Shown here: positions 7,787-43,410 of the stretch, one piece after another | How positions within the stretch are numbered: position 1 is the first letter of the stretch | How the letters are laid out: each line of letters starts with the position of its first letter | DNA from: a virus | IMG/VR virus record: IMGVR_UViG_3300025280_000055 | Span: 1 to 43,550 of that record | DNA length: 43,550 bases | Reading direction: 5' to 3' (one strand) | The notes under the pieces: generated by a model | What the model was told of the DNA's origin: nothing | The model's database searches: none | Seen by the model: the letters and a program-made list of their open reading frames with translations, nothing else | Translations under genes and position numbers: made by a program

Positions 7787-8164
7787 ATGACAGACGAATA
7801 TATAAAAGGTTGGGATTTGGATTTAAAGTTCGGAAAGATGGGAGAAGACTTTACAAGAGATGTTTTTGAAGGCAACTCAAAAGTTGAAGTTAAAACTGAG
7901 CGAGACATCTGGAAAACAACTGGAAACATAGCAATTGAAATTAGGTATAAAAACCAACATTCAGGCTTAACTACGACAGAATCAGGTGTTTGGGTTCATT
8001 TATTGGCCTACAATGGTGTCATAGAGGGAGGATTCATCTTTAAAGTAGCTGACCTTAAGGAAAAAATAAGAAGGCTTAAAAAAGAGGGAAACCTAAAAAT
8101 TGTTATGGGTGGTGATGACAATTTAAGCCAACTTGTTCTTCTTCCAATAAAAGATTTATTCTAA
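7787..8164 (+). CDS. Small PD-(D/E)XK-like nuclease, 125 aa
   Basis: Residues 33-36 are VEVK preceded by KFGKMGEDF, the E-x-K arrangement of PD-(D/E)XK nucleases with an upstream acidic residue. The following WKTTGNIAIE, SGLTTTESGVW stretch resembles small phage endonuclease/resolvase-like proteins. It could process branched or degraded host DNA; the substrate cannot be told. A GGGAGGTGG lies about six bases before the ATG. It is the last plus-strand gene; its 3' end overlaps the last late gene tail-to-tail by nine bases. Confidence 0.65.
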   Translation: MTDEYIKGWDLDLKFGKMGEDFTRDVFEGNSKVEVKTERDIWKTTGNIAIEIRYKNQHSGLTTTESGVWVHLLAYNGVIEGGFIFKVADLKEKIRRLKKEGNLKIVMGGDDNLSQLVLLPIKDLF

Positions 8165-11100
8165 TTCCTTAGGTAAATCTCCTAAATATTTCTCTCTAAG
8201 TTTAAGAAGTTCATTGTTTACCCAATCCAAATCTACCTCAGCTTTTTTGAAATCAATTGTCCATAAAGGGTCTGAATCACTTTCCATAACTTTAACTAAT
8301 TTTTTAATTTTTCTTGATTTCTCATAATTAGGTTCATCTTTATAAAGTTGTTCAAAATCATGTTGGGTAACATACAGGTCATGAATTTCCTCAAAAGTCA
8401 TTTGTTTATTACTTACAGGGTCTGTCCAGTAAACTCCATCCTTTTCTTTATAAACCATATTAAATGGGGAACTCTCAGTAGCTAAATACGTATAATAAGC
8501 TCCTATTTTCTCTTCAAAATCATCCACAAATTTAACAATTTCTTCTTGGGTTATAAAATCTAATACATTTTTATCTTCAGTGTCTTTTACTTTAAGATAA
8601 AGATTCCAAAACGTGTTAGACGCTTTCTGTTCTTTTCGTACAAGGTCATTATAAAACTTTTCTCCATCTTTACCATTTCTAAAAATAAGCCTTCCATTTT
8701 TATCTTCTCCTACTGTGAAAGGTGTTAAAATTCTAGGACTGTATGTTCCGTCTTTTCTCTTAAACCATTTTATTGTGCCATTTTTATCTTTGATTAAATT
8801 GAGTCCGCTAATCTCAATCAGGTTTTGAGGGTCTAAAAGTCTAACTGTTTCCTTATAAGCTTTATCTATAGATTTAGAAGAAGGGAGCCCTCCATTTTTT
8901 GTGTAATTTTGTGTATAACTCATAGTCCAATATGTATATATAAGTTTATCTAACTCTTTAGGGTCTAATAACCAAAATCCATCTTGAACGTTCTTTCTAA
9001 ATTGACTTAAGTTTATAACATTAGAATCTTCTGTAAAAAAGTCTTCTAATCCTATCGAGCCATCTGGTTTTGTAACATAATTCCTATTCTTAACCAAGTC
9101 ATAAATATCTGCATCTGCAAGTTCTTGATATGCTTTTTTAATTTTTTCTTTTTGAACAAGCAATGGGTTAGTTTTAAGACCTTCGTAAAGAAGTTTTTTA
9201 ACATGCCCATAAGTTTTAAATATTTTAGAAAGAGATTCGTCAGCCTGTTGATAAATATCTTTTCCAGCTTCCCTTGGATTATTCCAAGAACGTATTAAGC
9301 CAGCTACACCTACCCATGTATCATGAAGTCCACTGAGCTGAGGTATTCCTAAAACTTGTTGCCAATCGCTTCCTGAGAAAGAAGCTTGAGTTATAGGCCC
9401 AAGCATACCAATAAATCCTTCTCCTTGAACAATATTGTTTAGAATCATTTTAGTATTATCATCTTGATGGTCAGGAATTTTTCCATACATTCCATAGGAC
9501 ATGGCTGCAAGTATTGAGGCTCCAAATAAACCTCCAGCCATCTGAGCAAAAAGAGGGAATATTGTTCCATTTTTTCTTCCTAGATTAACCATTTTAGCAG
9601 CATTATATGTGCCTTGCATAGCCATCTTCTTAAATAGTAATAAATCGCTAATATAAGCCGTATCCATAAATCTTGGAGTGAACCCTCTAAGCGTTGTTCC
9701 TTGAGTCCTCAAAGAACCCATATATCTAGCTTTTAATACCGTTTCCATATACTCTCTTATTTCAGTGCCTCTTTTGCCTTTATCTTTAATACTAGAGAAA
9801 GTCGATAAATTATCCAATCCTGTTCTTTCTAAAATAATACCATGTTTGGTTAAAAGTTGTATTTGTCTATCATTTAAATTCCACCAAGTTTTAAGCCAAC
9901 GTTTTGATTCTTTTGAATTTTTTTGCATATTAAAAGATTTTCCATTGTAATTTGCAAGATTTATATGTTGCTTTAAAGCTATTATAGAAGCATAATCTGT
10001 AGACCATCTGTTAAACTTTTCTCCAAAAACTGTTCCTCCAAGGCCAAAGCCAAAATCAAGAGGCATTTTTAACCATTTTGATATTTTGCTAGTTCCTGCT
10101 CCTGAGCCTATGTCGTAAATTCTAGTTCCAGCTCCTTCTAAACCCATATCTTTTACATTTTGTCTATAATCTGCTGAGAATGCTTTAAGCCAACCAAGAA
10201 ATGTTGCATTACCATAAGCTGAATAGTTCATCATTTGACCTACAAGAACATTTTTAGCTCCATGGACTAAAGGTATCCCTAAATATGCTTTAGCCACTAT
10301 TCCTGTCACAGGTGTTAATGCTGTCCTTCTTATATCATCAAGAGGGACATCCTTATTGCTCAAGCTTAAAGCCGATTCAATAACCTCAACAGAAGCTTTA
10401 GCTATATTCATAAGCTGAGGGTCTTTTTTAACAAGAGAACTTTTTAGTATTGTTCTAAAAACAAACTCAGATGACTTTCTACCTGACACTCCTTCTATAG
10501 ATACAAAATCTGGAAAATACTCCATCGCTGATAGTAATCTTCCCATTGAATATGTGTAACCACCAATAATGTAATCAAAAGAATTTGGCCCTATTTCATA
10601 AGTAGAATGTTCTGATGTTGCTCTATAGCCTTTGGGAAGAATTTTATTCAAAATCCATTTTGCTTTAGAAGCTCCAGGACCTCTAAAATTAGGAGAACTC
10701 ACATAAGATAAATCAAGCTCTTTCATGCTTCTTCTTTGTAAAGGGTCGGCAGTAATTTCACTAGGAGAGAACTGCATTCTAGAAGCAAGGCTTATTTCTA
10801 TATTTTCTCTAGCAAGCTCAGCTGCTGATTGAAATGTGCCCTCTTTTTTTATGGAAAATTGCATTTTCTCTTGTGTTGTCATGTTTCTTATTTCAGCATC
10901 AGTTAAACCTGATTTTTCTCTTATAATTTTATTAACCTCTTTAGGAAGCTCTTTTTCAACAAATGCTTCATAGAAATTGTTGCCTTTTTTGAAATGATTT
11001 TTAAACTCACCACTTACCCTTAAATGACCATAGTTTTTAATCCATCTTTCTCCATTAACTCCATATTGCTTGATAAATTTCCCATACTGTTTAACAGTGA

Positions 11101-14100
11101 ATGTTCTTTTTGCAACCTCTCCTAGATTAATCTTCCATCCATCATACCAGTTTTGCAAGACATCTAAAGCAAGGCCTTCAACAGTATCTTTTCTATGTTC
11201 CCATGTTTTTGTATCATAAGCTTTTTCTATCACCTCTATCTGCCTTTTACCATAAGCTCCATATTTCTTCTCAACAAACCTCATATCAGAAAACTTTTCG
11301 CCTTGTCTTCCCGGTTTAACACTTATCCCAGGCTGCTTACTATTTTGGGTATAAATTTTTTGAGCTAAACTCACATCTTTGATTGATGCTAAAATGCTAA
11401 GCATATCCTTACTCTTAAGCCTTGCAAGCCAATAAGAAACAGGATTTTTTATAGGCCTCCATACTTCAGTTTTAAACACAGGGTCATAAACACGCTCACT
11501 TGCTAACGCTGTTATTAACTGCCTTCTTATTATACCATATTCCCCCTGATACCTTCCAAGAGATGAAGTGTAAAGTTCTAATTTATTCGCTAAACCTGGT
11601 AATCCTATAGCTCTTAAAAAATCATTTCTAGGCATAAGGAACCCTGCACTCTTTGCCCCTTTTCGTGTTATTTCTGAAATTAAATCACTTATCTTTTTAT
11701 GGCCAGGCGAGCTTGATATTCTTTTAATTTCAAGCATTTCTTTTTTAGCTTGCTCTACAACAGAAGATTCACCTCTCATAATCTCAGGGCTATTAAGATA
11801 TTCAGTTAATAATTTTATTTGAGTATTATTTGCAAGTTCAACCCTTCTATTTCTTACGCCAAACATATCTAAAATTTTATTCCAACTTCCATCTTGGATG
11901 CCTCTCGCTTTTCTTGTAAGTTTAATATCAGAAACTTTCCTCCAAAATGCAGGCTTTTTATGTAACTGAGCTTTATTTGAAGCTTTAAAATCTTCAAAAG
12001 CTATTTCAAACTTTATTATATCTGATATATCTGTCTTAGTGTTATTTTTAAGAGAGAATCCAGAGCCTTGAGAAATATCAATACCTGCAATTTCAGCTAT
12101 AATATGTTTCATTTCATCGATTTCAACTTGAGTCTGTTTCCCTAAGTAGTTTTTAACGTAACTGAAGAACTTTGCTCTTACATTATTTATAACTTCAAGC
12201 CTTACCTTTTCAACCAAAGCAGGGTCTTTAGATATTTTATACGCCTCGTTAGCAAAATCATCCAAGAGCTGCTCATTTTCTTTTTTCTTAAATTCTGGAT
12301 TTTCAGCCATTATCATAGATTTTAAATCTTGTATGTGTTCTTTGGCTGTTTTAATACCCAACGAAGTTACCTTTAAAGCTGAATCTACCGCTATCCACAT
12401 TTGAGCTGGAAGTTTAATTAATTCAGCCATACCTATATCAGCACGAAGAGCATTATCGAGAGATAGAGATTTTACAAACTTTCTAGCAGCATCTATTCCA
12501 GGTAATATAGAAGGATATTCTCTAACGATATCAAAGAAACTTACACCCTTTTCTTTTGACCTTGAAGCTAACTCTTGGGACCATTTTTTCTGTATTTTTT
12601 CATAACTCTTTTTACCTAAGACTTCAATAATTCTTCTTTGAATCTCTATATCTTGAGTGAGAGCTTTTAGAAAGTCATTGCTTATATCTCTAACATCCCT
12701 TTTAACTAGTGAATTAACTAAATTTTTCCTAATCCTCTCAATCGCCTTTCCTACAGAAGGATTTTTCCCCCAATCTTTTACCATTTCAGAGGTCATCCTA
12801 AAACCACTTATAAGTGAAGATGTTGGGGCTTTTAATAGTGCAATAATAGATTGCGTTGAAATATTTCTCTCTTTAGGGTTTACGTATTCAAAAAGCTTAT
12901 TTAATCTTTCCCCAATATCAAAAGAAAGGATTGCGTCAATAAGATTTTCTGGAGATTTGATTTCACTTTTATCTAAATCCCTCTTTACTCTTTGAGCGTC
13001 AACTTCTATTTGAACATATTTTTTAAAAGCTTTTATTGCTTTTATAGTCTGAAATGCAGAACTGTTGTTACTTATTAACCAAGCCTCTAATTTAGCAACC
13101 TCTTTAGGGTCAACCCCACTTAAAAGAGCCTCTTGGTATTTTCTGTATACTGCCTCAATATTACCAAGATTTCTATTTGCCTTATCAAATTCCTTTTTAA
13201 TCCAGTTTGTTATTTTTGTTCTGAATTTACTCTTTTTTGACGCAGTGTCTCCCATCTCTTGCTTAATTTCAACAACATCTCCCTCAACGTATCCTTTTTT
13301 ACTAATCTCTCTTCCTCTTATCCTATTAGTAATAAAATCAAGCTCCTGAGGTTTAAGTTCTCTGTAAAATTCTGTAACAAATTTTTCAGGAGTAATTTTA
13401 CCTTGCATTAAATCACGAATAAGCCTCTGTGATACTTCAATAGTCTTCTTTTTTCCTCCTGCTAAACCTTCATACCAAACCTTTAAAACATCCCTTTGCC
13501 CTATAGCATACTTTTCTCCAATCATTCTTTTGAAAACTTGTTCTAAATTTGCACCGTCCGAAGGAGCCCCAATCAAATCAAAAAGACTTCTTATTTCTTT
13601 CATATGGTCTGTAAATCTTTGTACCACTTTTTTTCTTAACCAGCCAAGGGATGCCGATTCTGTCATACCTTTTAATATTGTCCCTCTAAAACCAACTTTA
13701 CCTATAGTGCCAAACAAATCTAAAATAGTTTCTCCAGCTTTATTAAGTTGAAATTTACTTACAGCCTCATCAAGCTTTACAGTCATTTTTCTACCTGTTG
13801 CTTTATTTGTTACTGTGATTTTTCCATCAAAAATCTTTTGATTTTCGCTTATCCCTCTTGACTTATAAAAATCAATAAGGTCATTATATAACTCTTTACT
13901 AATCTCTACCTTCCACATCCCAGTTCTTGCTTCACCTTTTGGCTTCTTTACTCCAGGAGTTATATCAATATAATATTTCCCATCTATTTCTAAAATAGCT
14001 TTTCTCGTTAAGTTATTCATCTCTGAAATTCTTACAGCAAAAGATTCACTAGCCATCATAAGTCTAAGCCTTAAATTGGCAGCATTTTTAAGCATATCTC

Positions 14101-16927
14101 CACCTTTTTCATAGGTTACATTTATGCCTCTTATACCCTTTTTTACCATTGTTTCTGCAAAGGAATATATTCCTTCTTTAAATCTAGCAAAAGCTGGCTT
14201 TAACTTCCCAATTAATTCACCTACTTTAGCTGCTCTTCCTGCCCTATAAACCTCTTGCTCGAAAACTTCTTCAAATTTTCTTATATGCCTTTGCTCAATA
14301 AAATCTGTACCTTTCTGACCTGTCAATGATGGGCTTTTATGGATATAATTAAAGAATTTTTTAAATCCTTGAACCATTTGCATGTGAGAACCAGTTTGGC
14401 CTTTTGCTTCATAAAACTCTATAATAGCTTCCATATCTGCTTTAAACCCGTGAATATCGTTCTTGGTTAATTCAAGTAAATTTCTACCTTTTTTTGAAAA
14501 TTTATTTGCAAGATTAATAAGAGCTCTTTGGACAGGCTCTGAAAGTTTTAACTTATCAACAATAAGTTCAATAACTTCAGCATTTTTATTCTTCTGAGGC
14601 CCCTCAAGAGTAGGTAACTCTCCTCTATTCATTCTTTCACGCATTTTAAGGCTAGGCTTATGAGGCTCAAGTGAAGGGTCTTCTTTAACTATACGGTTTA
14701 TCTTTTGGGTAACAGTTTCTTGCCCTCCTTCCCCTTTGCCTTTTTTTGATTTACTTGCTTCAAGAGCATTCTTCTTTTTTATCTCCAAAAGCTTCCCGTT
14801 CTGGCCTTCGTAAGAATTTTCAATTACATCTTTTTTAGCTTTTGATTTATTGCTAGAGATATTTTTATCAGCACCATCAATTATAGACTCTATTTCAGCT
14901 TTAGTTTTAAGCTCATTGTTAATGTAATGGCTAATCTTATCAACCTGTTCAAATATATCTAATTTTTTTAATTTTTTCCACCAATCTGCGCTAGGCGTAA
15001 ATTCAGATTTTAATGTTTTAAACCTATTCTTAATTTCATTAATCCAAGTCAAAGCCATTTCTTTATCGTTAAATATATTTTTCTTCCCTAGTTCCGTCTC
15101 ACTACCAGGCTTTCCTCCTTTAGTCGAATGGGAATTCATCTCTGCCACCAATTGGTTAACTCTACTATTTTTTCCTGATAGGGAGGCCATCGTATTATTA
15201 ATCCAACTCTCAGGGAGTTTAACATCATCAGCGATATTATTATCTTTTCTAATTTTTGATTCAACAGCTTTTCTAAACTCGGCATCATTTTTAATAAGGG
15301 CTTCAATAGGCTCTGATGTCAGCTCTAAGAATCTTATTATCTCTATCATTTCTTTCATTCCATCATAGTTTCTTGATATATTTTCAACTGAGTCTAAAAA
15401 CTTACCACTAAAAGGATTTAATTTATTTGCTATCTGTAAAAGGTTTTTTAAATATGTTATTTCAGCCTTATCTACAGCTATATCTTCAGCCATTTTTTCA
15501 ATAGCCTTAGGGTCAAGTTTAACAATATTTCCATCTACATCTTCTATCGTCTGGTTCATCTTATCATATGATTCTTGTTTTATTTTTAAACCTTTCGTAA
15601 GTTCACCTCTCTTCACAGATAAGGCTAGCTTACCAAGCGTTAATGATGTTTTGATAAAGAATTGATTAGTTTTAAATCCTGCAATTATTGCAGTATTACT
15701 AAAAAGACGATGAGTAAAATAATCAAAATAGTTGTCATATTTCGTTTTATCGTAAGCATGCTCAAGCTGGAAGCCTTCATTATATAAATGATGGAATTCT
15801 GTTAATGTTGTCATTTGCAAACCTTCGATACCTAATCTAGGAAGTTTTGAAAGCCCCCATTTCTTAAGCATATCCCGCCCAGGACTTTTACTAATATTTT
15901 TAGCTAAGTTTTTACTTGCGTTAGCCTGTATTTTAGATAATGTTGTTGAAGTTAATCCTAATGTTAAACCTATAAAGCCATCAGTTAAAGATTGTTTAGA
16001 TGCATCTCTTATTGCTGCCCATCTATTTAATTCTTTATCTGGGTCACCAGCTTCTATATTAGCCATCTTTTGGTTAGTAAGATTAGAAAGATAATGACCT
16101 CCAAGGCTAAATCCGTACCAACCACCAAAATGACTCCCTGCGCTTTCAAATTTACTTAATGTCGCAGGAATAACTTTATCATCAGCAAAGTTCATAACTT
16201 TAGACTTAGACCATTGAGCAAGCCTATTAGTGTAATTCTTTTTTAATAACTTTTTACTTAATTCTCTGTTTGCAGCATTAAAACCCTTTCCTAATCCTTT
16301 GAAACCCAATTTGCCAATCCCACCAAATGCCATTTGTCCACCGAGCATTGATAAAAAACCATATGGGTCAGCCATTGAAACAGCAAAAGCTGCAACTTCA
16401 TCGTAAACACCAGGTTTGTAATCTCCAAGATGAGGATAAGCCTGCCTTCCTGTGTTATGAAAATATGCTTGAGCAGCCCATGCTCCAGATAAAGCATAAT
16501 CTCTACTCTCACCTTTCAACCTAAAAAGGTCGGCCATTTTTTCAGATGACCATCTATCTTCATGCATTGGGGCTTTTGCTAATATATTACTAATTTCATC
16601 GTTTGAAGCTTCAGATATAACTTGGTCGCTTTGACTTCTGTCATTATAATTTTTTTGTATTTGAGCATAACTTATTTGTTTTTGATTCCCAAAATCTTCC
16701 CAATTTGGAGGCATGAAGCGTACATCTCCACGACTCTTTTGGAATTTTTTATCTTCTCTCCATTTATCAATCTGATAATTATAAAGCTTTCTATGCGCCC
16801 CAAGAGTGTCTCCTTGAAATTCTTCTAGAAATTCCTGATACTTATCAGGAAAAGCAGACGCAGCTAAGTCAATATAAAAGTCTCTATCAAAGACATGATT
16901 TAGATTTTGTTGGCTAATACCTGCCAT
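8156..16927 (-). CDS. Giant virion/ejection protein, 2923 aa
   Basis: One uninterrupted frame of 2924 codons, about 20% of the window. The AAAGGAG ribosome site is inside the previous gene and the start overlaps its stop (TAATG). The size and last position after tail genes match internal virion (ejection) proteins of podoviruses. Most of it is basic helical repeats (lysine-rich 690-780). Glycine-rich hydrophobic stretches near 186-215 and 2457-2480 could insert in a membrane. Residues about 803-1150 resemble a tyrosine recombinase: SAM-like helices, R966 in AVRISEM, R1098 in LGWLRKK; the box II histidine is replaced by G1095. I saw neither clear RNA-polymerase motifs nor a lysozyme motif. The function is inferred, not proven. 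Confidence 0.75.
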   Translation of the reverse strand: MAGISQQNLNHVFDRDFYIDLAASAFPDKYQEFLEEFQGDTLGAHRKLYNYQIDKWREDKKFQKSRGDVRFMPPNWEDFGNQKQISYAQIQKNYNDRSQSDQVISEASNDEISNILAKAPMHEDRWSSEKMADLFRLKGESRDYALSGAWAAQAYFHNTGRQAYPHLGDYKPGVYDEVAAFAVSMADPYGFLSMLGGQMAFGGIGKLGFKGLGKGFNAANRELSKKLLKKNYTNRLAQWSKSKVMNFADDKVIPATLSKFESAGSHFGGWYGFSLGGHYLSNLTNQKMANIEAGDPDKELNRWAAIRDASKQSLTDGFIGLTLGLTSTTLSKIQANASKNLAKNISKSPGRDMLKKWGLSKLPRLGIEGLQMTTLTEFHHLYNEGFQLEHAYDKTKYDNYFDYFTHRLFSNTAIIAGFKTNQFFIKTSLTLGKLALSVKRGELTKGLKIKQESYDKMNQTIEDVDGNIVKLDPKAIEKMAEDIAVDKAEITYLKNLLQIANKLNPFSGKFLDSVENISRNYDGMKEMIEIIRFLELTSEPIEALIKNDAEFRKAVESKIRKDNNIADDVKLPESWINNTMASLSGKNSRVNQLVAEMNSHSTKGGKPGSETELGKKNIFNDKEMALTWINEIKNRFKTLKSEFTPSADWWKKLKKLDIFEQVDKISHYINNELKTKAEIESIIDGADKNISSNKSKAKKDVIENSYEGQNGKLLEIKKKNALEASKSKKGKGEGGQETVTQKINRIVKEDPSLEPHKPSLKMRERMNRGELPTLEGPQKNKNAEVIELIVDKLKLSEPVQRALINLANKFSKKGRNLLELTKNDIHGFKADMEAIIEFYEAKGQTGSHMQMVQGFKKFFNYIHKSPSLTGQKGTDFIEQRHIRKFEEVFEQEVYRAGRAAKVGELIGKLKPAFARFKEGIYSFAETMVKKGIRGINVTYEKGGDMLKNAANLRLRLMMASESFAVRISEMNNLTRKAILEIDGKYYIDITPGVKKPKGEARTGMWKVEISKELYNDLIDFYKSRGISENQKIFDGKITVTNKATGRKMTVKLDEAVSKFQLNKAGETILDLFGTIGKVGFRGTILKGMTESASLGWLRKKVVQRFTDHMKEIRSLFDLIGAPSDGANLEQVFKRMIGEKYAIGQRDVLKVWYEGLAGGKKKTIEVSQRLIRDLMQGKITPEKFVTEFYRELKPQELDFITNRIRGREISKKGYVEGDVVEIKQEMGDTASKKSKFRTKITNWIKKEFDKANRNLGNIEAVYRKYQEALLSGVDPKEVAKLEAWLISNNSSAFQTIKAIKAFKKYVQIEVDAQRVKRDLDKSEIKSPENLIDAILSFDIGERLNKLFEYVNPKERNISTQSIIALLKAPTSSLISGFRMTSEMVKDWGKNPSVGKAIERIRKNLVNSLVKRDVRDISNDFLKALTQDIEIQRRIIEVLGKKSYEKIQKKWSQELASRSKEKGVSFFDIVREYPSILPGIDAARKFVKSLSLDNALRADIGMAELIKLPAQMWIAVDSALKVTSLGIKTAKEHIQDLKSMIMAENPEFKKKENEQLLDDFANEAYKISKDPALVEKVRLEVINNVRAKFFSYVKNYLGKQTQVEIDEMKHIIAEIAGIDISQGSGFSLKNNTKTDISDIIKFEIAFEDFKASNKAQLHKKPAFWRKVSDIKLTRKARGIQDGSWNKILDMFGVRNRRVELANNTQIKLLTEYLNSPEIMRGESSVVEQAKKEMLEIKRISSSPGHKKISDLISEITRKGAKSAGFLMPRNDFLRAIGLPGLANKLELYTSSLGRYQGEYGIIRRQLITALASERVYDPVFKTEVWRPIKNPVSYWLARLKSKDMLSILASIKDVSLAQKIYTQNSKQPGISVKPGRQGEKFSDMRFVEKKYGAYGKRQIEVIEKAYDTKTWEHRKDTVEGLALDVLQNWYDGWKINLGEVAKRTFTVKQYGKFIKQYGVNGERWIKNYGHLRVSGEFKNHFKKGNNFYEAFVEKELPKEVNKIIREKSGLTDAEIRNMTTQEKMQFSIKKEGTFQSAAELARENIEISLASRMQFSPSEITADPLQRRSMKELDLSYVSSPNFRGPGASKAKWILNKILPKGYRATSEHSTYEIGPNSFDYIIGGYTYSMGRLLSAMEYFPDFVSIEGVSGRKSSEFVFRTILKSSLVKKDPQLMNIAKASVEVIESALSLSNKDVPLDDIRRTALTPVTGIVAKAYLGIPLVHGAKNVLVGQMMNYSAYGNATFLGWLKAFSADYRQNVKDMGLEGAGTRIYDIGSGAGTSKISKWLKMPLDFGFGLGGTVFGEKFNRWSTDYASIIALKQHINLANYNGKSFNMQKNSKESKRWLKTWWNLNDRQIQLLTKHGIILERTGLDNLSTFSSIKDKGKRGTEIREYMETVLKARYMGSLRTQGTTLRGFTPRFMDTAYISDLLLFKKMAMQGTYNAAKMVNLGRKNGTIFPLFAQMAGGLFGASILAAMSYGMYGKIPDHQDDNTKMILNNIVQGEGFIGMLGPITQASFSGSDWQQVLGIPQLSGLHDTWVGVAGLIRSWNNPREAGKDIYQQADESLSKIFKTYGHVKKLLYEGLKTNPLLVQKEKIKKAYQELADADIYDLVKNRNYVTKPDGSIGLEDFFTEDSNVINLSQFRKNVQDGFWLLDPKELDKLIYTYWTMSYTQNYTKNGGLPSSKSIDKAYKETVRLLDPQNLIEISGLNLIKDKNGTIKWFKRKDGTYSPRILTPFTVGEDKNGRLIFRNGKDGEKFYNDLVRKEQKASNTFWNLYLKVKDTEDKNVLDFITQEEIVKFVDDFEEKIGAYYTYLATESSPFNMVYKEKDGVYWTDPVSNKQMTFEEIHDLYVTQHDFEQLYKDEPNYEKSRKIKKLVKVMESDSDPLWTIDFKKAEVDLDWVNNELLKLREKYLGDLPKELE
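13478..14530 (-). other. Tyrosine-recombinase-like segment within the giant protein
   Basis: Residues about 800-1150 of the 2923-aa protein. A possible core-binding SAM-like domain (ELTKNDIHGFKADM... near 819-860) is followed by a segment with the XerC/D-like pattern RLMMASESFAVRISEM (955-970), a KPKGEARTGMWKVEIS turn (995-1010) and later LGWLRKKVVQ (1094-1103). The first catalytic arginine and the second arginine are present. The histidine of HxxR is missing, and the nucleophilic tyrosine is unclear (Y1140 or Y1152), so it may be catalytically dead. Confidence 0.35.
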
Positions 16928-22431: not shown

Positions 22432-23211
22432 TTAATCACTTGATTTGCTCCCATAAGGCGTAAACGTACCTTTAGACTTTCTACCAAAATAATCAATATC
22501 CTTTGTGCCTTCTTTTAATTTCTTAAAATCTAACCAATCATCAGGCATTTTAATTCCTAAAGTGTTATCCAGTAACGACTTTAGAAAAGAGTCAGTTTTT
22601 TCCCACACCCATTCTTCAACCTCTGCGGACTTTTCTTCCCAACCTTTCGCTCTCCATTTAGCTAAAAACTCATCAGAACGCTTAACTTCAGAAATTTTAT
22701 CTTTAAATAAGTCGCTTGCAAGATACTCGTCAACACTTGTAATTCCTTTATCTTCAAACTCTCCACTCTCTATTCCCTTTAAAAGGTCTTTATCATCCAT
22801 CAAGAGGGTCTTTGCTTCGTTTTTGGCTTCTAAACCTTTAGATATTTCTGTTGTTCCTACTGTTAATAAAGAACTAAGAAGATTTATCTTACTCTGTCTT
22901 CCTACTTTCTTATCAAAACTCTCTACAGCTAATTGAGTCTTTTCGCCTAAATACCCAAGCCCTTCAGTATGGCCTATTTTTTTTGATTCATCATGTGCGT
23001 AATCTATAGCCATTGAAATAGCCATTATCAAAGGGTTTCCTGATTTTTTACCAGCATCAGTCGCAAGGTTTAGAATTACGTCTAAAAACTCATTTCCGCC
23101 TTCCATCTTATCCTGTAAATTCTTCTGTGCTTCTCTTACATTTGTATCCCACCCTACAGAAAAATCACTAAATTCTCTACTCCAATCTATTCGTCTATCT
23201 GCGTCACCCAA
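22432..23211 (-). CDS. Helical structural-region protein, 259 aa
   Basis: GAGG lies six bases before the ATG. The protein is rich in D, E, K and W and probably all-helical; a mildly hydrophobic stretch (NPLIMAISMAIDYA, about residues 57-70) is too polar to be a clear membrane span. No motif was recognised. It is the first of five consecutive large genes after the fibre gene, and a candidate promoter lies just upstream, so it may begin a separate transcript for the ejection proteins. Confidence 0.6.
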   Translation of the reverse strand: MGDADRRIDWSREFSDFSVGWDTNVREAQKNLQDKMEGGNEFLDVILNLATDAGKKSGNPLIMAISMAIDYAHDESKKIGHTEGLGYLGEKTQLAVESFDKKVGRQSKINLLSSLLTVGTTEISKGLEAKNEAKTLLMDDKDLLKGIESGEFEDKGITSVDEYLASDLFKDKISEVKRSDEFLAKWRAKGWEEKSAEVEEWVWEKTDSFLKSLLDNTLGIKMPDDWLDFKKLKEGTKDIDYFGRKSKGTFTPYGSKSSD

Positions 23212-24806: not shown

Positions 24807-27800
24807 TTATACTCCAATCTTTGGACTTTTAACTCTATAAACATAGGTTATATCATTAATTTCAAAATCTTCAGGTATAGTGTTTCCTCCTATACTTAAC
24901 TGAAAAGAATAGCAATCTATCGGAGTTGTGGATATTAATGAAGCAACAGCCCATTGCCCACTTGTATCATTTAAAGAATTCTCATAGTTAGAACCTGTAC
25001 GATTTGTAGGAAAAGAATCAGTCTCATCGTCAGCCCCATCTGTTCCAAATTTTATATCAATATTAGAGTCTCCTGTGCATCGATATGTTAAATATATTTG
25101 GTATATACGCTTTTTATTGTGAGGCTTCCCAAAGTCTTCATCTTTAAGAGATATATTTAAAATTGTATCTTGGTCTCCACTTTCAGGTCTATCTTTCCAT
25201 TTATAAACTTTATGATTACTTTCAGTAGATATTCTATAAATCATATCTCCTTTGCCTGTATTTACTATATTAGACATACATTGAGAAGCAGAAAACCCAG
25301 AAAATGAACCCTGATATGTTCCAATATTTGAAGACCATGTTTTAGATAAAAAGTCATAAAGGAAAATTCTTCCTTCATGTTCCGTGCCTACATGTTTATT
25401 TCTTGCATTATATTTTATAATAAGTTTTTTAAATTCACCCGTATAACCAATAACTGGAATAATATTATTAAAATCTGCATTAATATCCCAATAGTATAAT
25501 TCTGAATTATTATTAACCCAACCTTGGTCATCTCTTGATATCATTCCATCAATAAGATTAATAACCTTTTCTCCATCAAAAACAAAACAGCCCATATTGT
25601 TTGCCCATACTACTCCAAATTCTGTTTTTAATGCTTGACATTTGTGGCGAATCCCATTATTGGGAAGTTCAGCAAATACCTCTACAAGATTCCCATCTAT
25701 AGATAAAATAAAAGAATTCTCTTCTGTTAAAACTACAAGATATTTTTTAAATCCAAACATCTCAATAATAGAATGAATTTCTAATCCAGGAATAGTTAAA
25801 ATTTCAGATAAAGGAAAAACATCGTTCATAGCCGAAGCAGACCTTAGTATCCTGCTAGGGCCTTCTTGGTAATTCTTATTCATAGCGTAACCATTAAATT
25901 CATTAGGTTCTTCTGCTTCATTTATAACAACACCCCCAACATATTCAACTCCATCAACAGATGCTCTAGCATTATATTTAACGTTACCCTGCCCTTCTTC
26001 GTTCCACTTATAACCAGTAATACCGCTAAAACTAAAAGTATCATCAGGCGGCTCAGGATAAGTAAAATTCATATCTTTCCACTCTTGATTAAATTTAGGA
26101 TAAGCAAGACCATCTGTAGTATTTGGATACCCAATAGCATGAGCTGCGGAACCATTAGCATCGTTTAATGTGGTAGTATAAATAATATCATCAGCAATAG
26201 TCTCCTGAGATAAATCTCTAGATGTCCAAGGAATCCATTCTTGCTTTTCACCTGCTTGTTTGGAACCTTTAATCCAATCCATTTCAAGCATTTCATGTAT
26301 TTCGGTAGGGTCAGAGCTATCACCAGCGCTAAACTTTCTTTTAAAATATATTTTTGCGCCTGTGATTCTTTTATCCATCATATTATATCTATCTCCATTT
26401 GATGAAAAACAAACAACTGGCCATAACTTAAATACATAAGCATTATCATTATCATCCTCTTCATGAGAGAAACTTACCTCTCCAATTTTTGTTGCTGTTG
26501 TTTCTTGTATTCCTAATCCCTCATCATATAACCATGTAGTATAAAATTCATATTCTGCATTATCCCAACCCCCAGTAAACGTATCATTACTTATCATTTC
26601 TTTATAAGCTCCAACCGTTTGCTTCACGAATCCTATACCTAATGTATTAAAACTATTTGCAGCGTATACTGATACATCGCTAATTTTTCCAGACCAACCA
26701 CTATTACTTGGCGTGAATGTTACCAAAGGGTCAGACAAATCAAAATCATCTCCTGATGCGACAAGAACTCTCGCTTTATAATAATTAACTCTTCCATCTG
26801 TAGCTGCTGTATCATTATCGTTGGCAATAACTCTTGTTGAAGTACCACCTAAATTTTCGCCCCCACTAACTCTTATATCTAACCCACTACCTGTAGGGCC
26901 AGCACAATCTGTTAATGTAAATTGAACAATCCATGAATAATCTGTAGGTGGAGCAGAAGTTTTGGGGTAATAAGCTAAAGAATATACGCTACTTCCAGAT
27001 TTTTGTATATAACTTTTATTTGTTGCATGTGGAACCCATGTCCAATCATTAGTCCCACTTGTATCGCAATCACCTTTATTACCGCTATTTATAGTATGCC
27101 AATAGTGAAGTATTTTTTTATCAGCAGCCGCAGTTGTGTTTTCTGCGTCAGCCTTATTATAAAGCATACCTCCATCATAAACTAAATTAAATCCTGGGAG
27201 GGTTTTTGAACCAAAGAAAGTGTTAAAATAAGTTATTACCTGATGGGCATTATTAATTTGTTCATTTCCAATAGCATTATATAGCTGATAAAAATGAACA
27301 TTTCCTGACATATCTCTTTGATTAGTCACAGCATTTGCTTCAGTGAATATATTAGACTTTGGCCATATTTCATTATCTGTTAAACTAGCATCATGCTCTA
27401 ATGGCCCTGTTTCCCAAGAATAGTCATAATAAACTTCAGCTGGATTAGCGTTTGTACTTAATGCTCCAAAGTTATTAGTTCCACCTCCATGAGTAGTGGG
27501 CTTTCTAAGATTAGCCTCTGTGTAATACCATTCATTTATATATGTTGATAATCCATCTCTTCCAAAAAGATTATTCCTATTAATATACCCTAACCATCTA
27601 ACGCTTGAATTTCTTCTACTATCAGCAGGGCTTGCTTTAACATTTCTTGCAGTTGCTAAAATTCTTAATGCATCATTAGTGAATCTAAAATAAGGTTTAA
27701 CAGCATAAGTTATCCCATTTTTTTCAGGCCAATTATTAAAATTGGAATCAATACCTAAATCTGCATCTGTTTGTGCTCTTAAACCTATAGCTCCAGTTCC

Positions 27801-39959: not shown

Positions 39960-41525
39960 TTAAATTCTTGCCCCTGTTACCCAATTATACTTCTTTTTCC
40001 TTGAAACCCACCTGCCATTCTTCTTTATTTTTTTACTTTTTCCTGCTTTTGGATTGCCTCTTGCAAATTGTGTAGAAAGCCAAAAAGCATCAATTGTATC
40101 ATCATGCGAGCCTTTAGGAAAATCAAGAAGTTCACCAATAAATTCATGCATATCCTTTTTTAAATGAACAGCCCCAGCTTTAAACATAGGCTGCAAACCT
40201 TCAAATAATCTATCTTTTTTCTTTTGTTGTCCATAACCTTTTATGCCTTTTTCAATACCAGGCAAGAAAAATCCTTCCTTTTTACTTCTTTTCATTACAT
40301 AATCTCTAAGCATCTCTTGATATGCTATTGTTTCAATATTTATTCTTTTAATTGGCTTATATCGTTTTGCGATTTTAAATATCTCATCGGCACACTCCAT
40401 TGGTAAGACTCTTTTTCTCCAATATTCAAGAACATAATAATCATAATCAGCAGTAACACCAATAACCATAATAACACTATAATCATTCCTAACCCCAAGT
40501 GTCGAAGCAGGGTCAACACCGATATAAATATTAATGTATTCTTTCCTATCATCCAAATGTTTGATATACCATGAACCAGTGTCTTCTTCAAATCTAACAT
40601 AACCTTTATAAAAGCCATTTGTAATATCCTCCTCATTAAAGATTTCATCTTCAGGTGATTTGGCTTGATTCATATATTCTTGATAAAATTTAGCTGGAGT
40701 TCCTGAATCTATATAAAATTGTTTTCTTTCTTGTAATTTTGGTAAAGGCCAACGACTTGGCCATAAAGGTTGACCATTTTCTAATATCGCCTTATAAGAT
40801 AAAACATCCCAAGAATAATCTTCACCTGTATTATCAGCATCCTGCTTTCCTTTTAATAGGCCATTAAGGAAACTATCATAATGTACCACTGTTCCATTAC
40901 ACCATAAAAACCCACCTTTATCAAAATCTATCGCAGGATACACAGCAGCAGTAACCCAATTCTTAATTTGAAGTCTTGATTCTGGAGTTTTCGTATTTAA
41001 CTCTGATTCAAAGTCATCAAGTATCATTCCTGTATATCTTGTAGATAATTGCTTTTTTCCTCTTAATCTTTGTGATGTACCCTTTGCAATCATTCTACAG
41101 CCATTTTTTAATATAATTTCATTCTTTGTCCACTTATTACCCTCAAGGTCTCCAAAATAATAATGAATAGCAGGATTCTCTAAAATATGATTAGCTATCC
41201 AAGCCAAGTTATCACAAGCTTGGTCTTGAGCTTCACCTATCCAACATATAAATTCAGGAGATTCTTTTGTTGCAAACAAGAATCTATGAAGCACTGCTGT
41301 TGATGCTAAAGTTGATTTTGCATGGTCACGAGGCAAAACAAGAGCTAATTGCTTATTTTCCTTGTCAATTAGTCTTTTACCCACTTCCACATGGAAGGGG
41401 GGCGTCGCAGACGCCAAAAAATCCTGTGGAGAAAAAAGTTTACCGAAGGCAATCAAGTCCTTATAAGCTATCTGTAGAACCTTTTCCTTTTCGGAAACAT
41501 TCCCATTAAGGTTCAAATTAGCCAT
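39960..41525 (-). CDS. terL: Terminase large subunit, 521 aa
   Basis: ATPase motifs: Walker A PRDHAKST (65-72) and Walker B MILDDFE (167-173). Nuclease motifs with metal-binding acids: YIGVDPAS (334-341, D338), NIETIAYQ (396-403, E398) and HDDTIDA (474-480). The enzyme pumps DNA into the procapsid and cuts the concatemer. It starts one base inside the endolysin stop (TAATG), so the two are translated together. The length of 521 residues is normal for this family. The packaging strategy (pac or cos) cannot be deduced by eye. Confidence 0.93.
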   Translation of the reverse strand: MANLNLNGNVSEKEKVLQIAYKDLIAFGKLFSPQDFLASATPPFHVEVGKRLIDKENKQLALVLPRDHAKSTLASTAVLHRFLFATKESPEFICWIGEAQDQACDNLAWIANHILENPAIHYYFGDLEGNKWTKNEIILKNGCRMIAKGTSQRLRGKKQLSTRYTGMILDDFESELNTKTPESRLQIKNWVTAAVYPAIDFDKGGFLWCNGTVVHYDSFLNGLLKGKQDADNTGEDYSWDVLSYKAILENGQPLWPSRWPLPKLQERKQFYIDSGTPAKFYQEYMNQAKSPEDEIFNEEDITNGFYKGYVRFEEDTGSWYIKHLDDRKEYINIYIGVDPASTLGVRNDYSVIMVIGVTADYDYYVLEYWRKRVLPMECADEIFKIAKRYKPIKRINIETIAYQEMLRDYVMKRSKKEGFFLPGIEKGIKGYGQQKKKDRLFEGLQPMFKAGAVHLKKDMHEFIGELLDFPKGSHDDTIDAFWLSTQFARGNPKAGKSKKIKKNGRWVSRKKKYNWVTGARI

Positions 41526-41920
41526 TAATAGTCCCTAAGTTCAAAATGTGGTAAATCTTTAAAGTTTGTATCCTTTACTTCTGTGTTGTCGTTCCAGTCG
41601 CCTCCCCAGCGTATAGGTATCCCTAATTTGAATGCAACTCCCTTAACAAAGCCTGCAAAGTAGTACATTCTGTCTGTATCTTTCCAATCTATAGGATAAG
41701 GCACAACATCCACAGCATTTGAAGGACTAGCATTATGGCGTCCATTTGGGTACTTAAGCTTACTTTTTCCTTCATCAAAGTACTTATTTTGTTCTTCTTT
41801 ACCTCTATGGCCTTGAATTACAGTACAATCAAAATATTTAATCACTTGATTGAATAATTCTTGTAAATCTTCATGGCAAGTGTCAAGATTTCCTCTTGAA
41901 CGTCTTCCAAATCTAGGCAT
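41525..41920 (-). CDS. M15-type peptidoglycan endopeptidase (endolysin), 131 aa
   Basis: The pattern RHNASPSNAVDVVPYPIDW (61-79) has H62 and D71, and the C-terminal LPHFEL (123-128) gives H125: the H-x(8)-D ... H zinc layout of the VanY/L-alanyl-D-glutamate peptidase family. RWGGDWN (104-110) is also typical. There is no signal peptide, so export through a holin is expected. It is unusual that the lysin sits between the small and large terminase genes, about ten kilobases from the small membrane proteins. It overlaps both neighbours by one base. Confidence 0.85.
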   Translation of the reverse strand: MPRFGRRSRGNLDTCHEDLQELFNQVIKYFDCTVIQGHRGKEEQNKYFDEGKSKLKYPNGRHNASPSNAVDVVPYPIDWKDTDRMYYFAGFVKGVAFKLGIPIRWGGDWNDNTEVKDTNFKDLPHFELRDY

Positions 41921-42156
41921 TATGCTTCTCCTCTTATTTCTTCTGCACCCATTAAATCGATGACTCTTTCGTTAAAATCGAATTCAGTTCTACAAAAAGG
42001 GCACAACCAACCAATAACATCGTCTCTATCATCCAATAACCCAACTCTTTTACTTATATCCGAATTTAGGTATAAATTTTTATCGCAAGCAGGACATAAA
42101 TCCTTCAATTTGCTATTTTTTTTCTTTATGGGCGATAATTTCTGTTTTTGGTCCAT
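41920..42156 (-). CDS. Small zinc-ribbon protein, 78 aa
   Basis: The start at 42154-42156 was chosen because GGAGG is eight bases upstream; a longer frame to 42303 is mostly antisense-like sequence overlapping the terminase gene. It contains two cysteine pairs, CPAC (about residues 20-23) and CPFC (about 51-54), forming a clear four-cysteine zinc ribbon. Its start overlaps the small terminase by 44 bases. Such small proteins in terminase clusters may assist packaging or regulate late genes, but no function is known here. Confidence 0.7.
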   Translation of the reverse strand: MDQKQKLSPIKKKNSKLKDLCPACDKNLYLNSDISKRVGLLDDRDDVIGWLCPFCRTEFDFNERVIDLMGAEEIRGEA

Positions 42157-42853
42157 TATTAAGTGCCTCCAGTTGCTCAGGTGAGAACCCAGCCCACACT
42201 GTAAGTTGTTCTTTCTTTTGTTCTGTGTCAAATAGTCCTGATATTTTAGATAATGCATCCAAAGAACGCAATTTGTCAGTATCTCTCTCTGATAAAGCCA
42301 CAATGTCTCTATATTTGCCTATTATCCACTCAGGTGTAACACCTTCATTAGCTAAAACTTCTTTAATTTCTTCTTTTATCATATTTTGAACACTTTCCTT
42401 TTGTAATAATCTTTGAGTCTTTTCTTTAATATAAGAATCTTTTGTAGCTTTTGGGTAAACTTTCTTAAAAGCTTCAATTGTATCAATGCCAGCAGCTACA
42501 TATCTAGCAAATAATACCTCTCTTGAGTTTTGTTTATTTTTTTTCCAATTTTGTATTGACTTGTAATTTCCAGAAAAAGAATAGATATTCTCTACAATCC
42601 CTTCATCTCCAAGCATTTTAACTTTCATATTGTCAATAATGAACATTCCGAGCACAGTCCTTACAAATGTCTTTATTCCGATATGGCCTTTCTTAAGAAT
42701 TTGGCAAATATAACCATCATCAGAAAGAATCCAATCACCTTCATTAGCATGACGCCAATTTTCAACATATAAAGTACCAGGCTTTATTGCTTCCAACTCT
42801 TTAACATTATCATAAAGATAATGATAAGAACCTTTTATGACTTTGAAATCCAT
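42113..42853 (-). CDS. terS: Terminase small subunit-like protein, 246 aa
   Basis: Residues about 115-215 (RYVAAGIDTIEAFKKVYPKATKDSYIKEKT... GVTPEWIIGKYRDIVAL) have the helix-turn-helix and helical oligomerisation pattern of small terminases, which recognise viral DNA. The N-terminal 100 residues (GTLYVENWRHANEGDWILSDDG) form an extra domain with no clear match. It is the first gene of the late block. A promoter overlaps its 5' end; only GGAAG at 12 bases upstream could serve as ribosome site, so translation may be leaderless. Confidence 0.7.
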   Translation of the reverse strand: MDFKVIKGSYHYLYDNVKELEAIKPGTLYVENWRHANEGDWILSDDGYICQILKKGHIGIKTFVRTVLGMFIIDNMKVKMLGDEGIVENIYSFSGNYKSIQNWKKNKQNSREVLFARYVAAGIDTIEAFKKVYPKATKDSYIKEKTQRLLQKESVQNMIKEEIKEVLANEGVTPEWIIGKYRDIVALSERDTDKLRSLDALSKISGLFDTEQKKEQLTVWAGFSPEQLEALNNGPKTEIIAHKEKK

Positions 42854-42859
42854 ATTTAA

Positions 42860-42888
42860 AATATACTTCCAAAAAAAATATTTGACAA
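42860..42888 (-). promoter_or_regulatory. Candidate leftward late promoter
   Basis: On the minus strand TTGTCA (42883-42888), a 17-base spacer and TATATT (42860-42865) precede the small terminase ATG by six bases. A transcript would begin at or next to the start codon. The -35 box overlaps that of the rightward promoter. The region is AT-rich, so the leftward promoter is less certain than the rightward one. Confidence 0.45.
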
Positions 42889-42909
42889 GAATTAAAATAT
42901 TGTTATATT
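42882..42909 (+). promoter_or_regulatory. Strong rightward sigma-70-type promoter
   Basis: TTGACA (42882-42887), a 16-base spacer and TATATT (42904-42909) are close to the bacterial sigma-70 consensus. An A-rich stretch just upstream (42871-42878) could act as an UP element. Transcription should start near 42915 and run into the hairpin-rich region and, if the molecule is circular, into the early genes. It is the best promoter match in the window. Confidence 0.75.
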
Positions 42910-42911
42910 AA

Positions 42912-43178
42912 GACTCTTGCATATATGTAAATTGGTTAAAGACTTGTTCCGTATATGTTTACTTGGCTAGAACAAGGGGTAACAAAGCCACAACGCAAGT
43001 CGAAGGTGAATAAGCGTGTTAAAAGTCAAAGCAGACTAAAATATAGTCACCCATTTCAAGAAGTGCTTTATTCTTGATTGTCCTCTTCAGGCTCCGAAGA
43101 AACAAGGACAGGACTACCACTCCACATCTCAGTGGAGGGGGTAGATAGTCTCTGTCCCATACTCACCAAAGAAACAAG
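42912..43178 (+). ncRNA. Candidate structured non-coding RNA or long leader
   Basis: This stretch begins at the predicted start of the promoter at 42882. Hairpins seen by eye: GAC..TTGC/GCAAGTC (42912-42920/42995-43001) enclosing CTTGTTC/GAACAAG (42943-42949/42970-42976); TCAAGAA/TTCTTGA near 43058; and a long stem with GGACAG/CTGTCC (43106-43111/43152-43157), GACT/AGTC, ACC/GGT and CTCCAC/GTGGAG around a six-base loop. The direct repeat AAGAAACAAG occurs at 43097-43106 and 43169-43178. A 40-codon ORF (42955-43077) without ribosome site overlaps it. No known RNA class was recognised. Confidence 0.5.
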
Positions 43179-43269
43179 TATAAAGTAATGTAACAGTCAA
43201 TTTCCTAAAAAATTTTCCAAATTTCAAAAAATAGCGTTAGAATGAGTGAGAGGGTTTTTTATGCAAAAG

Positions 43270-43302
43270 CCCACCCCCAAGTTGGCTCGAGGGGGAGTTG
43301 GG
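43270..43302. other. GC-rich hairpin
   Basis: CCCA (43270-43273) and CCCCC (43274-43278) pair with GGGGG (43291-43295) and TGGG (43299-43302) across a 12-base loop with a three-base bulge. A four-T run follows on the minus strand only. It could be a weak leftward terminator or part of the structured leader on the plus strand. AGCCCACC within it is also the complement of GGTGGGCT in the repeat at 43449. Confidence 0.4.
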
Positions 43303-43410
43303 ATTTGGTTGAAAAATTGGTTAGTAATTATAACAATATATCCATCATTTAGAATAGAGAGAGTAATTAAGGGCAACTAATAACCTAATGTCCTATCAAT
43401 ATAATTTAAA

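Follow-up and report, generated by a model that had tools for sequence, protein, structure and literature searches.

Near the right-hand end of a 43,550-nucleotide stretch of viral DNA (the window: positions 1 to 43,550 of IMG/VR record IMGVR_UViG_3300025280_000055), a promoter stands immediately upstream of a predicted, folded non-coding RNA. The promoter's left-hand neighbour is a gene for a small-terminase-like protein (phrog_51), and no gene with a ribosome site is seen between 42854 and 43550. The promoter is of the sigma-70 type, TTGACA-16-TATATT (42882-42909, + strand), with TTGACA at 42882-42887, a spacer of 16 nucleotides, TATATT at 42904-42909 and a TG ahead of the second hexamer; it scores 11/12 and is the top sigma-70-like site of the region, in a scan that returned 15 promoter-like sites where 8.4 were expected. 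The element is also kept in the relatives L004-L007. An earlier interpretation made from this one sequence (the sequence-only reading) had singled out this promoter as the best and had proposed that it serves a hairpin-rich RNA instead of a gene, and both proposals hold up. It had also reported no gene with a ribosome site nearby, even across a circular junction; the first part agrees with our inspection, whereas circularity is without support, the record being classed as linear and a left-pointing terminator near its end hinting at genes past the contig. Both ends of the RNA are predicted, the start lying a few bases past the -10 box and the end at or just past the second copy of a ten-base direct repeat. 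The features of the locus are as follows:

42916 to 43180, + strand: non-coding RNA with a predicted extent of about 260 nucleotides, based on the fold and on homologues
42919 to 42958, + strand: hairpin P1, GCATATATG (42919-42927) with CGTATATGT (42950-42958); 8/8 tested pairs show double changes
42943 to 42976, + strand: pseudoknot PK1, CTTGTTC (42943-42949) with GAACAAG (42970-42976)
42964 to 42990, + strand: hairpin P2, TGGCT (42964-42968) with AGCCA (42986-42990), from comparative evidence
42994 to 43017, + strand: short hairpin P3, CGC with GCG and a conserved loop, TCGAAG, from comparative evidence
43005 to 43051, + strand: pseudoknot PK2, GGTGA (43005-43009) with TCACC (43047-43051)
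43056 to 43077, + strand: variable hairpin P5, TCAAGAA...TTCTTGA
43079 to 43083, + strand: first TGTCC (UAUCC in most members of the family), able to pair with GGACA at 43106-43110
43090 to 43106, + strand: core 1, GGCTCCG (43090-43096), and copy 1 of the repeat, AAGAAACAAG (43097-43106)
43106 to 43157, + strand: last hairpin P7, GGACAG...GGGGGTA...TCTCTGTCC, the 3' strand of which holds the second TGTCC (43153-43157)
43163 to 43178, + strand: core 2, TCACCA (43163-43168), and copy 2 of the repeat, AAGAAACAAG (43169-43178)
43179 to 43238, no strand assigned: AT-rich stretch after copy 2, 77% A+T

The region 42912-43180 folds with a predicted energy of -70.3 kcal/mol (z = -2.5), a value equalled by 2/200 shuffles, and the last hairpin (43106-43157) comprises 19 pairs in the minimum-energy fold, much as the sequence-only reading had described it. 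On a MAFFT alignment made independently of the structure, pairing holds in 94% of cells and 20/25 tested pairs have changes on both sides; compensatory changes occupy 121 cells compared to 38 in shuffles, and the signal is lost on sliding the partners. The loop of P1 contains a conserved TTGGTT (42932-42937). PK1, its strands fixed by anchors only, retains 7/7 pairs in all 42 sequences read, with 8 distinct strand pairs, and PK2 averages 5.8/6 pairs over 17 distinct strand pairs, its 3' strand having been picked as the best match within a short interval. Since stems and pseudoknots covary across homologues, we conclude on comparative grounds that the RNA is real and that its fold is under selection. 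Covariance across related phages had been set beforehand by the sequence-only reading as one check of its proposal, and the outcome, strong compensatory change and conserved stems, goes in its favour.

Pattern scans of IMG/VR combined with covariance model searches bring the family to over 50 viral contigs, which fall into roughly a dozen clades. Searches of full records returned one strong match per carrier and zero matches in records of phages that lack the RNA. Among relatives of the phrog_51 gene the same site is occupied either by the RNA (L004-L007, L028-L030) or by a short RNA-less stretch, and in the divergent clade L (L137, L145, L159, L160, L163, L171 and L184) the RNA lies away from a small terminase gene. 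One carrier (L071/G014) is a phage whose terminase is unrelated and whose gene content hardly overlaps with that of the other carriers. The RNA matched no family in Rfam 15 at the gathering score, the only match in the window being a tRNA; a permissive Rfam search gave chance-level matches only, on the other strand. Cultured phages and plasmids gave no match or only short, low-scoring ones, and six pattern matches in bacterial genomes were all chance on reading, leaving no true bacterial locus. Judged by its homologues, then, this is a new family of folded RNA that occurs in uncultured phages unrelated to one another. It is of interest as a conserved and strongly covarying element that has no counterpart in the searched RNA library and is carried by phages with unrelated terminases.

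The most informative feature of the locus is one that the sequence-only reading had mentioned in passing, the ten-base direct repeat. It is indeed present twice, but it brackets the last hairpin only and not the whole RNA. Without mismatch, AAGAAACAAG occurs in the whole window only at 43097-43106 and 43169-43178, and a ten-nucleotide repeat arises by chance in about 5% of shuffles of an RNA of the same composition, so that taken from a single sequence the repeat is weak to moderate evidence. It becomes decisive only when the homologues are added. In most members copy 1 is preceded by GGCUCC[G/A] and copy 2 by CNCCA, while the cores of clade L differ (CUCUG and C[U/A]CUA). The repeat itself varies among phages and yet its two copies agree within each phage, as with AAGAAACAAG, AAAGAGUAAU, AAAAUGCAA, AGAGACUA, AGAGUCUA and GACACAAA, and further phage-specific repeats with agreeing copies are AGUACAAAG, AAAAACCAGU, AAGAGGAAGCA, CAGAAACUA, AUAAAACAG and AAGGUUGUA. 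Copy 1 matches its own copy 2 at 8.0/9 positions and the copy 2 of other loci at 4.3/9, a difference reached in 0/20,000 permutations that ignore the relatedness of the loci; a weaker trend of this kind holds for the arm ahead of the core (4.2 vs 2.9 of 6). Close relatives differ in both copies simultaneously (L044 vs L045; L140 vs L187), in L171 both copies lack the same single base, and the divergent clade with another core and another repeat keeps the rule of agreement.

The mismatches that do occur in the 3' arm are one-sided: in 27/28 cases copy 1 has G where copy 2 has A. This bias fits copy 1 of the RNA lying on the template of copy 2, because a G in the RNA can pair with the T opposite A, and the reverse pairing would fail. 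Complementarity to the repeat inside the RNA does not go beyond chance (6.34 vs 6.47 expected), and no complement is found elsewhere in the phage in 9/12 records. The repeats of the other three, G003, G005 and G011, are only 8, 8 and 5 nucleotides long and have 5, 3 and many reverse-complement occurrences, respectively, as expected for such short words. We infer that the simplest partner of copy 1, and one that is always present, would be the DNA strand from which copy 2 is transcribed.

The gene neighbourhood bears on where such a partner can reside and on what the RNA might do. No gene common to all carriers was found, which favours a partner located at the locus itself, and no gene was exclusive to all phages with the RNA, in a comparison with records lacking the RNA that were partial. 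The principal rival is that a fast-evolving phage or host protein binds both copies, whether as RNA or as DNA, in the manner of operators or immunity sites, and that the copies shift together with its specificity; we rate this as unlikely while taking it seriously. Such a protein would explain concerted change without any complement, RNA-less relatives carry short repeats at the same place, and a repressor-like gene lies near the RNA of G014; but no one protein accompanies all carriers, the spacing from copy to copy varies and the one-sided G/A mismatches are left unexplained. The arrangement of the flanking genes speaks to the antitermination leader and the decoy that the sequence-only reading had put forward along with an early regulatory RNA. 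The position of the RNA directly after a promoter and its strong structure suit a regulatory leader of this kind, and a regulatory function is possible; the neighbouring downstream genes, however, are convergent with the RNA in G003, G009 and G012, in L071/G014 the RNA runs against an opposite-strand operon, and neither a leader nor a decoy accounts for the joint change of two copies of the same sense. We accord leader and decoy only a very slight chance.

Upstream of both copies lies a second duplicated element. UAUSC precedes copy 1 and copy 2 alike, and a middle strand, GGAUA (GGACA in clade A, GCAUA in clade L), fits either, changing in step across clades, so that UAUSC-linker-core-copy 1 and UAUSC-linker-core-copy 2 seem able to stand in for each other. 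The DNA after copy 2 averages 78% A+T compared to 66% for the loci overall. Many clade B loci, L047, L054 and L056 among them, have ATTATA directly after copy 2; the opposite strand there reads TATAAT and may be an antisense -10 element.

The explanation that we favour, tentatively, is that the element may be a cis-acting phage RNA in which copy 1 replaces nascent copy 2, giving rise to an R-loop and possibly to a start of replication or recombination. In this mechanism the 5' domain of the RNA would fold first and the segment UAUSC-linker-core-copy 1 would be displayed as a loop that base pairs with GGAUA, the middle strand, hold shut. Once the polymerase had moved past UAUSC-linker-core-copy 2, the middle strand could change partners and pair with the second UAUSC; the first segment, thereby released and identical in sense and sequence, would displace nascent copy 2 from the template DNA strand. 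A persistent RNA-DNA hybrid (the R-loop) would be left at copy 2, beside AT-rich DNA. In the least certain step, RNase H and DNA polymerase of the host, or annealing proteins of the phage, would start replication or recombination from the hybrid. While the R-loop at copy 2 is what we infer from the repeats, the role in replication or recombination is speculative. What we count towards that role is the setting of the RNA in G014 and clade L: there an operon runs divergently from it, encoding a replication-initiation-like protein and also, in the case of L171, a Sak annealing protein.

Several observations weigh against this mechanism. Transcript and hybrid are both predicted from sequence comparison. 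The GC skew of G014 is unchanged at the RNA and thus gives no support for an origin, and RNA-less relatives retain the same DnaB, Cas4-like and RuvC-like genes. The switch is a poorer fit in clades E and I, linker lengths show a modest correlation only, and part of copy 1 can itself form pairs within the RNA in clade A. The G/A asymmetry, moreover, may come in part from the A-rich surroundings of copy 2 and from inheritance within clades.

The same pairing might have another consequence, in that copy 1 could pull nascent copy 2 from the polymerase hybrid, arresting or ending transcription and setting a 3' end without a U tract. The length of the repeat is close to the 9-10 bp hybrid of RNA polymerase, a hairpin stands immediately ahead of copy 2, and no canonical terminator was found after copy 2 on the same strand within the window. 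An elaborate 5' domain would be superfluous for such a purpose, however, and the 3' end of the RNA is a predicted one, which together lead us to regard arrest as quite unlikely. The window does hold an intrinsic-terminator-like hairpin on the other strand (43447-43418, - strand); it points left, which suggests leftward genes past the end of the contig. The duplicated segments would also be compatible with a ribozyme-like two-site machine, whose copies occupy the same place in turn while the intervening piece is excised or circularised. Here the ability of the duplicated UAUSC-linker-core-repeat to dock on one strand and the constant core beside a variable repeat are set against an RNA that has no guide complementary to the repeat and no group I match, and we find this improbable.

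In the ColE1 plasmid, RNA II forms a stable hybrid with its template DNA and is processed by RNase H (PMC3640518, citing Masukata and Tomizawa 1990), and by analogy the phage RNA would work most like RNA II. Shared features are a promoter-driven structured RNA without a gene and an internal segment that recurs, identical in sense, further downstream and can pair with the template strand of that second site; a stable hybrid with its own template DNA, for which host factors suffice, is the proposed part of the likeness. Nonetheless, the phage RNA is not a member of that class: there is no sequence or Rfam match and no invariant G stretch, and unlike the G-rich loop of RNA II, which faces a C-rich template, the phage segments are A-rich, variable and co-varying. 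R-loops are also used at the origins of bacteriophage T4, where a phage transcript is annealed to the origin (PMC3016281). These origins are a proposed analogue of the hybrid considered here. We know of no structured RNA family with co-varying repeats among the T4 origin transcripts.

Natural RNAs that covary with DNA are, to our knowledge, mostly guides of nucleases or recombinases. In the phage family, same-sense repeats that evolve in step instead suggest that the RNA pairs with its own gene's DNA, and none of the nucleases or recombinases tested for is encoded. A guide RNA acting in trans on DNA with a host-encoded effector would recall the IS110 bridge RNAs, in which a loop covaries with adjacent DNA and the two sides of the loop pair with opposite DNA strands (PMC11208160); the covariation of a structured-RNA loop with adjacent DNA is common to both, and a constant core next to a variable arm would also suit a guide. 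In the phage RNA, by contrast, both arms have the same sense and correspond to one strand, no mobile element is seen, the match is only to the RNA's own locus, and the 13 records searched contain no IS110 recombinase (PF01548), no TnpB/Cas12f-type protein (PF07282) and no reverse transcriptase (PF00078). We hold a guide of this type to be very improbable, and the same searches set aside bridge RNA and, to the extent that partner genes can tell, TnpB omega RNA and the template RNAs of reverse transcriptases (retron, DRT) as assignments. A group I intron was likewise rejected, with no match to the RF00028 core and no internal guide. The immunity RNAs of phages P4 and P1 resemble the element in containing direct repeats, which are paired by a complementary segment; the absence of complement described above, within the RNA beyond chance and elsewhere in 9/12 records, speaks against this type. 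Large, ornate non-coding RNAs such as GOLLD, ROOL and OLE are in some cases phage-borne (PMC12286853), and differ from the present RNA, which is smaller, has a self-copying segment and matches no Rfam family. Should the R-loop form, these phages would possess a sequence-specific switch between transcription and replication without a dedicated protein. A broader version, to which we give a somewhat unlikely standing, is that of a new class of self-guided phage RNA: a pseudoknotted element carrying a rapidly diversifying copy of its own 3' end, which through a built-in RNA switch would replace the nascent copy on the template and in this way mark or start replication, or immunity, specifically on DNA of the same phage, again without a dedicated protein.

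Further elements surround the RNA. In the window, a block at 43225-43330 (AAAAAATAG, TTAGAATGAGTG, a T-run, a C-rich part and GGTTGAAA, in this order) is conserved even in RNA-less relatives; lying next to the small terminase gene, it may be a cos/pac site or else an origin. In L008-L027, which are RNA-less, a promoter-like site upstream of the small terminase gene is followed by short, clade-specific repeats (TATAGAGATA, GTTAACAG). A small open reading frame (MKVKGIDLKDLTKKQQNAMKRHSVHHTGNH...) is inserted directly after the RNA in G009 (22778-22951) and in L029, L040, L060, L061 and L067. The large terminase matches in two frames in G003 (41415-42921) and G008 (26206-27776), for which sequencing error, a frameshift and an insertion are candidate explanations. 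Elsewhere in the window, a non-coding stretch at 320-645 holds a tRNA-Cys (445-517), the flanks of which have inverted repeats (GGCAGAG/CTCTGCC) and may be another structured RNA, and a single open reading frame of 2923 amino acids occupies 8156-16927 (- strand).
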